Shown here: piece after piece, positions 28,619 through 35,700 of the stretch
Layout of the letters: the number at the start of each line of letters is the position of its first letter
Numbering within the stretch: position 1 is the stretch's first letter
DNA from: Caldilineaceae bacterium
GTDB taxonomy: Bacteria; Chloroflexota; Anaerolineae; Caldilineales; Caldilineaceae
Direction of reading: 5' to 3'
DNA: 35,904 nucleotides
Assembly: GCA_020433455.1 (NCBI GenBank)
Contig: JAGRCP010000084.1
Coordinates: forward strand, 1-35,904
The notes under the pieces: model-generated
What the model saw: only the letters and a program-made list of their open reading frames with translations
What the model was told of the DNA's origin: nothing
The model's database searches: none
Made by a program: the position numbers and the translations under genes

Positions 28619-28668
28619 CGAGCTTCGGACGATCAAGACCAACGAACGAGTTGGAAGGAACCTCACTT

Positions 28669-29778
28669 ATGCGATTAACCTATCCCTTTACCGCGCTGGT
28701 TGGCCAGGAACGCATGACCCGCGCGCTTATCCTCAACGCCATTAACCCCCTGATCGGCGGCGTTCTTATCCGCGGCGAGCGCGGCACAGCCAAGTCAACG
28801 GCCGCCCGCGCGCTGGCCGCTCTTCTCCCCGCTATTGAAGTCGTGGAAGGCTGCCGCTTCGGCTGCAATCCCGACCGGCCTGACGTCTATTGCGACGAAT
28901 GTCGCGAGCGGGTGGCCCGGGGCGAAGTCCTCCCCCGGGAGATGCGCCCCACGCCCTTTGTGGATTTGCCCGTCAGCGCAACCGAGGATCGGGTGGTGGG
29001 TACGCTGGACATCGAGAAGGCCATCCAGCACGGCGAACGTCATTTCGAGCCGGGGATATTGGCCGCGGCCAACCGGGGCGTGCTCTACGTGGATGAAGTG
29101 AACCTGCTGGACGATCACGTGGTCGATCTGCTGCTGGACAGCGCGGCCATGGGCGTTAACGTGGTGGAGCGGGAAGGCATCAGCTTCCAGCATCCGGCCC
29201 GGTTCGTGCTCGTGGGTTCCATGAATCCCGAAGAAGGCGATCTCCGGCCCCAGCTCCTGGACCGCTTCGCCCATTCCGTGGACGTAGTGGGGTTGACTGA
29301 CGCCCGGGACCGGGTGGAAATTCTGCGCCGGCGCGTCTTCTTCGAACAGGATCCCGACGATTTCACCGCTGCCTACGAGGCGGCCGAAGACGATTTGAGC
29401 GCCCGCATCATGGCCGCACGCAAACGCTATCCCCTGGTCACCTATACGGATAAGGACCTCTATACCATCGCTTCCCTGACCGCGAGCTTTAACGTGGACG
29501 GCCATCGGGCCGACATCGTCATCCTCAAGACGGCCCGGGCCCACGCGGCCTATGAGGGACGTCTCGCCATCAACGATCGGGACATCCTCCTGGCCGCGGA
29601 ATTGGCTCTGCCCCACCGCATGAAGAAGCAGCCCTTCCAGGATTCGGTCATGAGTCCCGAACAGCTCGAAAGCAATATGCGCCGCGCGCGTACCGAGGCT
29701 GAAGAAGCCATGGGCGAAGATGACGACACAGACTCGGAAGCCGAGGGCAGCGCTTCGACCGATGAAAAAAAAGTCTAG
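28669..29778 (+). CDS. Metal-chelatase AAA+ ATPase subunit (ChlI/BchI-like), zero-frame product
   Basis: This is a 369-residue AAA+ protein of the Mg/Co-chelatase I-subunit family. It starts MRLTYPFTALVGQE and has Walker A GERGTAKST near residue 36, a Cys-bearing insertion (GCRFGCNPDRPDVYCDEC), Walker B VLYVDEVNLLDD and the helix-2-insert-like HHVNV region. An arginine finger segment follows in PQLLDRFAHSV. It ends in an acidic tail (GEDDDTDSEAEGSASTDEKKV). ATG 28669 has GGAAGGA nine bases upstream; a TTG at 28651 is less likely. The stop lies just after an A8 run that can shift ribosomes by -1 into the VWA frame, so this would be the small subunit of a chlD-type frameshift gene. A partner CobN/ChlH is not in the window. 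Confidence 0.88.
   Translation: MRLTYPFTALVGQERMTRALILNAINPLIGGVLIRGERGTAKSTAARALAALLPAIEVVEGCRFGCNPDRPDVYCDECRERVARGEVLPREMRPTPFVDLPVSATEDRVVGTLDIEKAIQHGERHFEPGILAAANRGVLYVDEVNLLDDHVVDLLLDSAAMGVNVVEREGISFQHPARFVLVGSMNPEEGDLRPQLLDRFAHSVDVVGLTDARDRVEILRRRVFFEQDPDDFTAAYEAAEDDLSARIMAARKRYPLVTYTDKDLYTIASLTASFNVDGHRADIVILKTARAHAAYEGRLAINDRDILLAAELALPHRMKKQPFQDSVMSPEQLESNMRRARTEAEEAMGEDDDTDSEAEGSASTDEKKV
29766..29772 (+). other. Slippery heptamer A-AAA-AAA for -1 frameshifting
   Basis: The zero frame reads GAA-AAA-AAA-GTC-TAG with stop at 29776-29778. The A run (29765-29772) provides an A-AAA-AAA site followed by G, a classic bacterial -1 slippery sequence. A slip by one base gives AGT-CTA-GAG-GGC, which is open for 323 codons. 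An SD-like GAGGG at 29743-29747 lies 18 bases upstream, further than the usual 10-14. Confidence 0.75.
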
Positions 29779-30743
29779 AGGGCGATGAATCGGAGCTAAG
29801 CGACAGTGCAGAGGCGGGCGAGGGCGGCACGGCCCAACCCGACGCCTCGCCTCAGCAGAGTTCATCGCCCGGAGACAACAAAGGTGCACGTAAACCGGTT
29901 GAGATCGGCGACACGTTCGAGACCAAGCGGCTGGATTCTCCTCTGGATAAAATGACCCGGGAGCGCGCGGGCAAGCGCTCCTACACGCGCACGGATCGCA
30001 AACGCGGCCGCTACATCAAGGCGCGCCCTGCGGGAGAAAAGCGGGACGATATCGCATTCGACGCGACCCTGCGCGCGGCCGCGCCCTATCAGCGCAGCCG
30101 CATGGAGACGCGCAAAAATAACCTGGCGCTCCAGTTGCGCACGGGTGATCTGCAGCGCAAGGTGCGGGTGCGGCGCACGGGCAATCTCATCCTCTTTGCG
30201 GTGGATGCAAGCTGGTCCATGGCCGCAAGCGAGCGCATGGAGGCGACCAAGGGCGCGATTTTCAGCCTGCTGGTAGACGCCTACCAGCGTCGGGATCAGG
30301 TGGGGCTGGTGGTCTTCCAACGCGACAAGGCGCGCTTGGTCCTGCCGCCGACCAGCAGCGTGGATCTGGCCCAAAAGGCGCTGGCCAATCTGCCCGTAGG
30401 CGGCAAAACGCCCCTGAGCAGCGGCCTCTTTCTCTCCTGGCAGGTCATTGAGGGAGCCAAGCGCCGAGACCCTGAGATTCGCCCGCTCCTTATTCTGCTC
30501 ACCGACGGCGCGGGCAACGTCAGCATGACGGGCATGCCCGCGCAGGAAGAAGCCAATCGCATTGCCGATCTCTTCCACCAGGACGCGGCCATGCGGGCCA
30601 TCGTCATCAACATGGAGCACGCCGCGTTTGACCGGGGGCTGGCCCAGAAGCTGGCCGATGCCCTGGGCGGCGTCTGCTACAACCTGCCCGAACTGCGCGC
30701 GGATACCCTGCTCTCCACGGTACGGCGCGAGATTGACACGTAG
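29772..30743 (+). CDS. VWA-domain chelatase subunit (ChlD-like), reached by -1 frameshift
   Basis: This open frame has no good start of its own. It opens right after a stop at 29763-29765 and runs on from the slippery site. It encodes an acidic/Pro linker (LEGDESELSDSAEAGEGG, then SPQQSSSPGD), the basic segment FETKRLDSPLDKMTRERAGKRS typical of ChlD, and a von Willebrand A domain. The VWA domain has the MIDAS motif DASWS (from 30204), GKTPLSSG and LLTDGAGN. The preceding frame also ends in an acidic linker, so a fused protein would have the standard I-domain/linker/VWA plan of ChlD. An internal ATG at 29952 could give a shorter VWA protein but would cut into the basic segment. Confidence 0.8.
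   Translation, partial: SLEGDESELSDSAEAGEGGTAQPDASPQQSSSPGDNKGARKPVEIGDTFETKRLDSPLDKMTRERAGKRSYTRTDRKRGRYIKARPAGEKRDDIAFDATLRAAAPYQRSRMETRKNNLALQLRTGDLQRKVRVRRTGNLILFAVDASWSMAASERMEATKGAIFSLLVDAYQRRDQVGLVVFQRDKARLVLPPTSSVDLAQKALANLPVGGKTPLSSGLFLSWQVIEGAKRRDPEIRPLLILLTDGAGNVSMTGMPAQEEANRIADLFHQDAAMRAIVINMEHAAFDRGLAQKLADALGGVCYNLPELRADTLLSTVRREIDT
29780..29870 (+). promoter_or_regulatory. Frameshift-stimulating RNA structure
   Basis: GGGCGATGAA (29780-29789) pairs perfectly with TTCATCGCCC (29861-29870), a 10-bp closing stem that begins seven bases after the slippery site. Inside it GGCGAGG (29817-29823) can pair with CCTCGCC (29845-29851), and GAGGCG/CGCCTC is an alternative. The spacing is what is expected of a -1 frameshift stimulator. 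Confidence 0.7.
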
Positions 30744-32929: not shown

Positions 32930-33078
32930 ACCAGACACGGAACACCCGCCGCAACGGGCGGGCACGGGGGCCCGCTACCGACGTCCCATCGTAGGGACCG
33001 GCCTCCGTGCCGGTCCGACCCCCCGCGACGAAACCAGACACGGAACACCCGACGCAACGGGCGGGCACGGGGGCCCGC
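32930..33078. repeat. Pair of 46-bp direct repeats with GC hairpins
   Basis: Two copies (32930-32975 and 33033-33078) start ACCAGACACGGAACACCC and differ at one base. Each ends in a hairpin with arms GGCGGGC and GCCCGC. Between them is a third stem, GACCGGC/GCCGGTC (32996-33015), preceded by CGTAGG. These look like dispersed GC-rich intergenic repeats. The region holds no gene. Confidence 0.8.
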
Positions 33079-33109
33079 CTCTACCATGCCCGTCATTCTG
33101 ATGTGGCAA

Positions 33110-33136
33110 AAAAACGGTGGGGGGACCCCCCCGTCA
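33110..33136 (-). terminator. G/C-run hairpin followed by T run downstream of the FGE tail
   Basis: On the minus strand a run of G is followed by TCCCCCC and ACCG, forming a G/C hairpin, and then seven T. It lies just after the stop of the frameshifted FGE tail and may end this gene. In retroelement-diversified genes a hairpin often follows the variable region, so it is noted also for that reason. Confidence 0.55.
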
Positions 33137-33148
33137 GAGCGCCGAGGA

Positions 33149-33400
33149 TCAGAGAGCAGAGCTTAGGAATAGGGACGGACCAACACACAACACAACCCGA
33201 CAACCCCTGTTGAAGCCCCGATGGCTCGGAACGTTCCAGCCGCGGCGGCGGGCGGACGCATCGACAGAGCCGTAGAGCCATGACCCGCCGCGGACGACGC
33301 GTATAGCCGAACCGCCGTCCTGAATATTTTCAGGATTTTCGTACTCATTGCGGCACCATTCCCACACGTTGCCGCTCAGGTCCAGAATGCCGTAGGGCGA
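33149..33400 (-). pseudogene. Out-of-frame C-terminal part of the FGE/C-type-lectin domain with a DGR-like variable region
   Basis: This frame reads SPYGILDLSGNVWEWCRNEYENPEN, then RVVRGGSW, and ends GCRVVLCVGPSLF before a TGA at 33149-33151. It is the canonical end of an FGE-sulfatase/C-type-lectin-like domain and is shifted relative to the upstream NTPase frame, which stops at 33376. Between the Trp of RGGSW and the AGG-GGT codons (33209-33277), 19 of 23 codons end in C or T. The four others encode Ala, Trp, Pro and Arg, residues that are normally fixed in this fold. This NNC/NNT pattern is what adenine mutagenesis of AAC/AAT codons gives in diversity-generating retroelement targets. No reverse transcriptase or template repeat lies in the window. 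Confidence 0.65.
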
Positions 33401-35700
33401 ATGCCCACAGGCGTCGTACTTTGCAAGTTATAGGGTCCAGCACTATTGAACGTCTCGTCTATGTTGGCATAGCCGGAAAGGTACTCGTCGCCCCACGGGT
33501 AGAGGCGACCATCATGGCCCCGAGCCGCCTTCTCCCACTGCCATTCGGTAGGCAGGGTGATCACCCATTCGCCATCCTGCACTTCGAGCGGCAGGAGGTC
33601 TACATGGGTGCGGGCCTGGGCGGTAAGCCAACGACAGAAGGCCACGGCCTGATACCAGGTAACATTATCCCGCGGGTGGTTGTCGTACTTGAATCGTTGC
33701 TCCGCCAAATCATCATTGTCCGTCCGGGCCAGGCCGTCCCACCATTGCGAATTACGTAGGCCGTCGTCCGCGTCCACAAAGGCTTGAAACTGACCATAGG
33801 TAACGAGATAGCGGGCCATCCAGAAGGTCGACTCAGTACGGAGCTCGCCGTCTTGGTAGATGAACTCTGTGCGTCCTTGCGCATCCGCCTGGGGAACCTT
33901 TACCCAGTCCATGTCGGGCAGGCCATCGGCGTTCAGCCCCACCCCCTTGCGGAGATCGCCCAGGCGGGCCAGAGCCTGGCCGGCTCCCGCCCGCACCACG
34001 GGCGACCGCTCCGTATCCGTTAAGACAGGCAGCAGAGATTGGACCATGCTTTGCCGCAAGGGTGCATTGGCCGCCGGCGCCTGATCCTCCACTTCGGCCA
34101 CTGCGTCCAGCACCCGCGCGCGATCGCCGCTGAGCATCGCGGCCAACAAATCGGCGGGCGCTTCGGGCAGATCCACCTCGACCTCCACCGTACCGGCCAG
34201 GCTGATATAGCGATAAATCTCTTCCCGCTTCAGGCCGGCAAAGCGGGCGCGCAGGCTTGGCGCATCACTCGGCTCTTCCTCGGGATAGCGCAACATCTGC
34301 TCCAGGAGGCTATAGGCAAACCGGTTCTCAAGGTAGGGCCGGAGCAGGCCGCCGGCGTCCTGCTCCGGCGCGACGGACGTCGAAGAGCGCCCGTAAATCA
34401 GCGCCTCCTCGTCCGTGGGTTGGGCGGCATAGGCTTCTTCCAAACGCAGCACCAAGGTGGGAAAGCGCCGCCATTGGCGATAGAGGTCAGGGTATTGGGC
34501 CTGGATAATGATGGTCTTGGCCAGCAGGGGCCAGGCAATCGCGTCCCGGGCCAGGGCCTCCCGGTCCATACGCGCCCGGGCAATCGCCTGGAGCAGGCGA
34601 AAAATATTGAGGCCGCGCTTGATCTGGCGCGGGCTGGGATGAATGCCCCGAGCAAAAACGGCGCGGGTGATGTCGTCCAGCCTGATTTCGGCGGGAAACT
34701 TCTCCTCAATCTTGCCGATAAAGCCTTCCACATCCTCCACGCCCAGGGGCGGCAACTGGAAGGGAATCTGAACGATCTTCTGGAGATAGGTGTCGCCGGT
34801 AATGGGCAGCGCGCTCTCCTCCTGTACGCTGTGGAAAAGCGCGCCGTAGCGGGCGTTGAGACCCCGCTTAATCACCTCCCGATCCATGCCCAGGACAAAG
34901 ACCGTACCCGGCACTTCCAGGAAGAGCTTGATGGCCTCCAATACCTCCAGCGCCTTCTCGGGCAGGCAGCGGTCCAGGTCATCCACAAAGACGATAAGAC
35001 GCCCTTCCTCGCCCAGCACCATTTCAATCGCCTGCCGAAAGCCGCGCTCGAACTGCTCCATGCCCAGCAGTTGATCCCGGTGATATTCGTGGACCTCCCG
35101 ACGGATGGCCTTGCTGTCCGGGTCTTTCTCCCCCCTGAGAAACTGGACCAAAGGCTTGATAACGCCCGGCACCGGCAGCAAGGCATCTGCAATTTCCAAG
35201 GCTGTATCGCTCTTTTCGCGCAGGAGCGTGAGCCAGTCCACCGTCAGCTTGCCCATCTCCTCCCAGTCCACGGGGCGGTAGACGCTCTCCTGCAGGCGTT
35301 CCAGGTGATCGACCTGCGCTTTTTGCTCATGGCTTAATTTATCGTAGTCAATCCGTTTGCGTGACTCGCGCGGCCCCTCGCCTTCTTCACGCGGGTAGAG
35401 TGCATCCAGCACGCTGAGGATAAAGGCGCGCCAGAGTGCGTCCTGGCGGTCATATTTCCAGGCCGTAAACCAGACCGTGCGCACGCCGGCAAGCCCCGCT
35501 GCCTCAATCCGTTGGCGCATCATGGACAGGAGGCTCGTCTTGCCCACACCCCACGCGCCGAAGACGCCCACGGTCAGCGGCGTCTGCCCGTGGCGGATGA
35601 TGCCTTCCAGCGCAGGGCGGAAGTCGTCAAAATTAAGATAGTCATCCAGAGAATGCAGATCGGAATGGTAGGCGTTGCCGGAAGCAGGGTTTGAAGGCAT
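33376..35700 (-). CDS. KAP-family P-loop NTPase with FGE-sulfatase-like domain (frameshifted at its 3' end)
   Basis: This is a 774-residue protein. The N-terminal KAP NTPase has Walker A GAWGVGKTS (48-56), the WFTAWKYDRQDALWRAF motif, and Walker B LIVFVDDLDRC with Asp240/Asp241/Asp243. It is followed by FLEVPGTVFVLGMDREVIK. Its KAP insert lacks clear membrane helices. A middle helical region includes HEAT-like SLLPVLTDTERSPVVRAGAGQALARLGDLR. From about residue 615 an FGE-sulfatase/C-type-lectin domain starts (MDWVKVPQ, FWMARYLVTYGQFQAFV, PRDNVTWYQAVAFCRWL, LPTEWQWEKAARG, YPWGDEY). It ends abruptly at TTPVGI, and the rest of the domain continues in another frame. NTPase-FGE fusions occur in predicted conflict or signalling systems of multicellular bacteria. 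Start ATG 35700 has a weak SD. Confidence 0.8.
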   Translation of the reverse strand: MPSNPASGNAYHSDLHSLDDYLNFDDFRPALEGIIRHGQTPLTVGVFGAWGVGKTSLLSMMRQRIEAAGLAGVRTVWFTAWKYDRQDALWRAFILSVLDALYPREEGEGPRESRKRIDYDKLSHEQKAQVDHLERLQESVYRPVDWEEMGKLTVDWLTLLREKSDTALEIADALLPVPGVIKPLVQFLRGEKDPDSKAIRREVHEYHRDQLLGMEQFERGFRQAIEMVLGEEGRLIVFVDDLDRCLPEKALEVLEAIKLFLEVPGTVFVLGMDREVIKRGLNARYGALFHSVQEESALPITGDTYLQKIVQIPFQLPPLGVEDVEGFIGKIEEKFPAEIRLDDITRAVFARGIHPSPRQIKRGLNIFRLLQAIARARMDREALARDAIAWPLLAKTIIIQAQYPDLYRQWRRFPTLVLRLEEAYAAQPTDEEALIYGRSSTSVAPEQDAGGLLRPYLENRFAYSLLEQMLRYPEEEPSDAPSLRARFAGLKREEIYRYISLAGTVEVEVDLPEAPADLLAAMLSGDRARVLDAVAEVEDQAPAANAPLRQSMVQSLLPVLTDTERSPVVRAGAGQALARLGDLRKGVGLNADGLPDMDWVKVPQADAQGRTEFIYQDGELRTESTFWMARYLVTYGQFQAFVDADDGLRNSQWWDGLARTDNDDLAEQRFKYDNHPRDNVTWYQAVAFCRWLTAQARTHVDLLPLEVQDGEWVITLPTEWQWEKAARGHDGRLYPWGDEYLSGYANIDETFNSAGPYNLQSTTPVGIRPTAFWT

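Follow-up and report, generated by a model that had tools for sequence, protein, structure and literature searches.

The window analysed here is the whole stretch of 35,904 nucleotides of a Caldilineaceae bacterium (contig JAGRCP010000084.1), and the locus of interest lies on its minus strand. A profile search assigned an open reading frame of 774 amino acids (33376-35700) to a KAP-family P-loop NTPase (residues 34-373; PF07693, E 1.6e-34), a linker and the first two thirds of a formylglycine-generating-enzyme-like (FGE) domain, which has a C-type-lectin fold (residues 623-766; PF03781, E 3.3e-22, profile positions 34-169 of 255), after which a frameshift leads the frame to a stop at 33376. 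The last third of the FGE domain is found in a different frame, read from 33400 to 33149 on the minus strand as 83 amino acids and a stop codon (PF03781, E 9.8e-13, profile positions 174-254 of 255). This frame translates to SPYGILDLSGNVWEWCRNEYENPENIQDGGSAIRVVRGGSWLYGSVDASARRRGWNVPSHRGFNRGCRVVLCVGPSLFLSSAL, in which GNVWEWCRNEYENPENIQDGGSAIRVVRGGSW, LYGSVDASARRRGWNVPSHRGFN and RGCRVVLCVGPSLFLSSAL follow one another up to the stop, and it ends in the variable region (VR). The VR proper (33209-33277, minus strand) comprises the 23 codons after RGGSW, 19 of which are NNC or NNT (NNY); our recount agrees exactly with the original prediction, including the four exceptions GCG, TGG, CCG and CGG, encoding Ala, Trp, Pro and Arg. 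That prediction also placed the VR in the FGE tail of an NTPase gene. The profile match bears out the FGE tail, and a C-terminal C-type-lectin/FGE fold, with PF03781 covering both of the halves that the frameshift divides, would carry the VR; the tail is, however, out of frame with the NTPase. Elsewhere in the window (28651-30743), a Mg-chelatase-like AAA ATPase is followed by a von Willebrand A (vWA) domain protein. MoxR-vWA pairs occur in conflict systems; the pair in the window looks chelatase-like.

The NTPase and the VR are out of frame because of a 16-nt deletion, the junction of which (33401-33406, minus strand) lies between TTPVGI and SPYG in the translated sequence. The deletion was located, and its length counted, by eye in a comparison with 12 relatives, including a paralogue in the same genome (on contig C121). 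Where relatives such as this paralogue read GGGCATGTATCCCCAGGGGCAGTCCCCC, the window reads GGGCATTCGCCC, and between the same conserved anchors there are 53 nt in the window and 69 nt in locus L029. The missing 16 nt fall between GGGCA and TTCGCCC, and their loss probably arose by slippage between short GGGCA repeats, judging from the sequence at the junction. Among all 12 relatives examined, the deletion is unique to the window. Both domains are thus present and contiguous, while an in-frame fusion of the NTPase to the C-type-lectin domain is absent. The paralogue itself is an EAD1-NACHT-FGE gene (C121:361-3491, L020), and its contig stops just before the expected VR. As C121 breaks off partway through 32 nt that it shares with the window without a mismatch, and this stretch lies near 33345, downstream of the deletion by about 55 nt, a chimeric assembly join is possible.

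Among 150 related genomes the FGE tail recurs, hypervariable exactly after RGGSW, whereas the sequence on either side of this part changes little. A diversity-generating retroelement (DGR) is a targeted-mutation system that reshuffles a recognition domain, and its signature is that an A in the template (TR) becomes any base in the VR, and not the reverse. Many of the recurring tails have such templates. The sister genome G032 has two VRs, on separate contigs, that share one TR located on yet another contig, from which they differ at 17 of 17 and 15 of 15 template A's. Differences between TR and VR likewise fall at a template A in three other genomes (16/17 in G145, 25/26 in G122 and 16/16 in G004) and in records labelled Zoogloea (18/19), Acidobacteria (17/18) and Verrucomicrobia (15/15). 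It should be noted that all of these counts come from ungapped local alignments in runs of more than 100 nt, with a score that tolerates mismatches at A, such that the share of A is somewhat favoured. In three further genomes, G006, G014 and G030 (L149, L146, L147 and L035), VR-type FGE genes are present and no reverse transcriptase (RT) was found; the assembly of G006, in 60 contigs, has a completeness rating of 100%.

The original prediction also described a G/T-rich segment followed by a G/C hairpin 3' of the VR, and both were located. The G/T-rich segment of conserved type (33177-33208, minus strand) lies where the VR has its IMH (initiation of mutagenic homing) side, and a genome search allowing up to 3 mismatches found it nowhere else. 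Three CTCTG units lie between the end of the VR and the hairpin (33135-33161, minus strand), as they do after the VRs of relatives. The hairpin, CGGGGGGGTCCCCCCACCG, followed by seven T's (33108-33133, minus strand), is by folding a candidate DGR target hairpin and/or terminator; the hairpin proper (33115-33133) folds at -8.5 kcal/mol (z -2.4), has a GGTC loop, which is off the GRNA consensus, and stands about 75 nt beyond the conserved Gly-Cys-Arg codons, with the CTCTG tract in between. The confirmed targets of relatives mostly share this order, with a CTCTG-type tract first and a G/C hairpin following at much the same distance, and tracts of 3-9 TCTG or CTCTG units between VR and hairpin are also found in L029, L060, L093, L145, L062 and others. 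Over 72 FGE tails, the 130 nt that follow contain a mean of 3.1 TCTG, as compared with 0.67 in shuffles, and in 13 pairs the count is higher after the VRs than after their TRs (Wilcoxon p 0.001), although these pairs are partly related, two are without any TCTG and one has equal counts. The open literature that we searched yielded no description of a CTCTG motif with DGRs, which does not show novelty. We tentatively suggest, while considering it rather doubtful, that the tract is an undescribed target-marking element that helps the DGR to tell target from template and that allows NTPase genes to become new targets across phyla. If functional, it would join the hairpin as a second signal that marks the target in cis.

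Further downstream, a repeat search revealed a 46-nt repeat with a palindromic core in two copies (32930-32975 and 33033-33078), within 32930-33078. A single further exact copy of the core exists in the genome, immediately 3' of a VR-like gene on contig C27. The last 420 bases of this contig (L021) hold a second VR-like FGE tail without a template (RGAAFDDPPVNVRCASRDGYNPNSRNYYIGFRVVASDF), again with a CTCTG tract and a hairpin, and the contig ends about 200 bases past this tail, just after the repeat that it has in common with the window. By analogy, the palindromic repeats resemble the MITE-like arrays described at degenerate DGR loci, and this resemblance should be taken as a lead rather than as a test.

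The genome (5.25 Mb in 172 contigs, 98.97% complete) was examined by pattern searches for the template and reverse transcriptase that the original prediction expected elsewhere in it. Two RT genes are present. The first, on contig C155 (L019:3306-9375), belongs to an intact DGR with an RT that has the DGR-type motif IGNLTSQ and the motif YADD, together with bAvd (PF22296), a TR and two FGE targets, one of which is an HTH-NACHT-FGE protein. The TR lies around L019:7783-7857, its tail reads GFRIA and is of a different family from the window VR, and it was ruled out as the cognate template, as it gives no alignment with this VR. The second, on contig C60 (L026:1007-3401), overlaps cas1 and is followed by cas2, which makes it a CRISPR adaptation module with RT; owing to the overlap and to its motif QGMPIAP in place of the DGR motif, it was ruled out as a DGR RT. 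A DGR RT that belongs to the window VR was thus not found in the genome, the RT of C155 serving its own TR and that of C60 being RT-Cas1-Cas2. Searched across the genome with up to 3 mismatches allowed, both ends of the window VR matched only themselves; an A-rich template-like pattern matched C155 alone in the whole genome, and no bAvd is found in the genome beyond C155. The expectation of an RT and a template elsewhere was therefore not borne out: no TR matching the VR except at A appeared at up to 3 mismatches at either end, and the sole DGR RT has a TR of another family. The cognate TR and RT are likely absent from the genome; as the assembly consists of 172 contigs and DGR loci break assemblies, this absence is likely rather than proven. 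A cognate template would be of the RGGSWNNN type, with a 3' side reading GGTTGTCGGGTTGTGTTGTG.

The leading alternative is that the gene is a live DGR target whose RT and TR lie in an unassembled gap and whose frameshift reflects either faulty assembly or a minority variant. Indeed, contigs C121 and C27 break off at a VR-type tail or directly behind one, which would be expected of an assembly interrupted by repeated or diversified VRs, the tail in the window is still free of stops over its 83 amino acids, and the TR of G032 sits on another contig than its VRs. Nonetheless, the genome is 99% complete and shows no RT, Avd or TR of the family of the window VR, and the deletion is of 16 nt and is no homopolymer slip. 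Moreover, intact relatives carry the TR about 170-300 nt beyond the VR; at that place the window instead holds the two copies of the palindromic-core repeat, and an inositol monophosphatase gene also lies 3' of the VR. We thus consider a live target unlikely.

As the window VR is without a cognate template, it was compared with templates of other genera. Against the non-cognate TR G027a, changes affect 21 of 30 A sites, as opposed to 12 of 42 others (Fisher p 5e-4). Of the 9 A's in the window VR, none faces a non-A of this template. In FGE tails with no sign of diversification (L053, L054, L045 and L114), by comparison, about half of the A's stand opposite a non-A. Other TRs gave p values of 7e-5 to 3e-3. 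These p values should be regarded as rough, because G027a performed best of the eight templates compared, and shared ancestry means that the test is not an independent one. The differences from non-cognate templates are strongly biased to A; the templates that served to gauge this A-specificity all come from other genera and contribute differences at non-A positions of their own. A DNA search with the VR in 46 relatives gave nothing beyond short chance matches, the relatives searched including no genome of the same genus, and the exact 20-mer of the IMH side was not found in viral contigs.

These comparisons also bear on the view that this is an ordinary FGE-type domain that was never a DGR target, with an NNY pattern that reflects GC-rich codon usage. 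The codon pattern alone is unremarkable, since NNY makes up 56% of the codons in the neighbouring open reading frames and 39 of the 2018 stretches of 23 codons in coding sequence here (about 2%) reach 19 NNY, and codon bias was accordingly dropped as proof of a DGR. However, the directional A-to-N pattern against several TRs, the homologues with TR/VR pairs and the presence of the CTCTG tract and hairpin all speak against an ordinary domain, which we regard as very improbable. Least credible of all is that the intact DGR on C155 acts in trans on the window VR as a remote target, as, for all that this locus has a complete set of parts, its template ends GFRIASS with no IMH-side sequence in common with the window VR, and a scan of this VR over the locus gave no alignment.

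We therefore hold with good confidence that the region is the C-terminal VR of a KAP NTPase-FGE target of a DGR, the cassette of which was probably lost or is unassembled, the gene itself probably being a decaying relic. The original prediction that the gene is, or was, a DGR target is supported by the relatives whose homologous FGE tails have TRs, and by the target-type signals 3' of the window VR, and it stands on firmer ground than the codon evidence first offered for it; of the two wordings, "was" is better supported than "is", because the gene carries the 16-nt frameshifting deletion. As the frame is broken and the template and RT were not found, the present copy is probably inactive. The ancestor would have been an intact NTPase sensor, the FGE face of which was diversified by A-mutagenic retrohoming, whereby A-rich (AAC/AAT) codons of the template would have led to the rewriting of the binding-face codons. 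Such a face would bind variable ligands, possibly of phages, and ligand binding would switch the KAP NTPase, which would pass on the signal. The cognate cassette would since have been lost, or may be unassembled, while the gene decays. The KAP NTPase part resembles QatA (E 1e-40) and PifA (E 2e-23) in PADLOC, a likeness that is limited to this part of the window protein; it fits a defence role and does not show it.

The architecture has been described before. The clade 5 DGR targets of multicellular bacteria (Thiohalocapsa PB-PSB1 and others) combine a STAND, NACHT or KAP NTPase with a C-terminal CLec/FGE domain that carries the VR (PNAS 2024, PMC10907252), and filamentous chloroflexi are among their hosts (PMC10907252). 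A sensor role has been proposed for these KAP- and STAND-NTPase targets, for which, according to the authors, experiment is still needed, and degenerate DGR loci without RT or TR exist, some with MITE-like arrays instead (PMC10907252). The window gene likewise joins a KAP NTPase to a C-terminal FGE domain carrying the VR, but here the target gene is itself frameshifted and the assembly retains no TR of its class. DGR-linked FGS domains are also known from ternary conflict systems (eLife 2020, PMC7159879). There, too, the FGE/FGS domain with its C-type lectin fold is the DGR-diversified part, whereas the FGS domains of ternary systems are mostly fused to vWA (VMAP) and the window FGE is fused to the KAP NTPase. 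BPP-1 requires a hairpin after its VR (PLoS Genet 2011, PMC3240598); a G/C hairpin lies downstream of the VR in both, with a loop of GGTC in the window as opposed to GRNA in BPP-1, and the window also has the CTCTG tract before the hairpin.

Taken together, the locus is probably best read as a DGR target that has been orphaned and is decaying, of the KAP/STAND-NTPase and FGE sensor class already described in multicellular bacteria. It would represent the apparent death phase of a DGR-diversified NTPase sensor, frameshifted and without a mutagenesis cassette, in a genome that retains a complete DGR of another class. Together with G006, G014 and G030, in which no RT was found, this suggests that such systems are often lost, or depend on parts supplied in trans, in this bacterial family.
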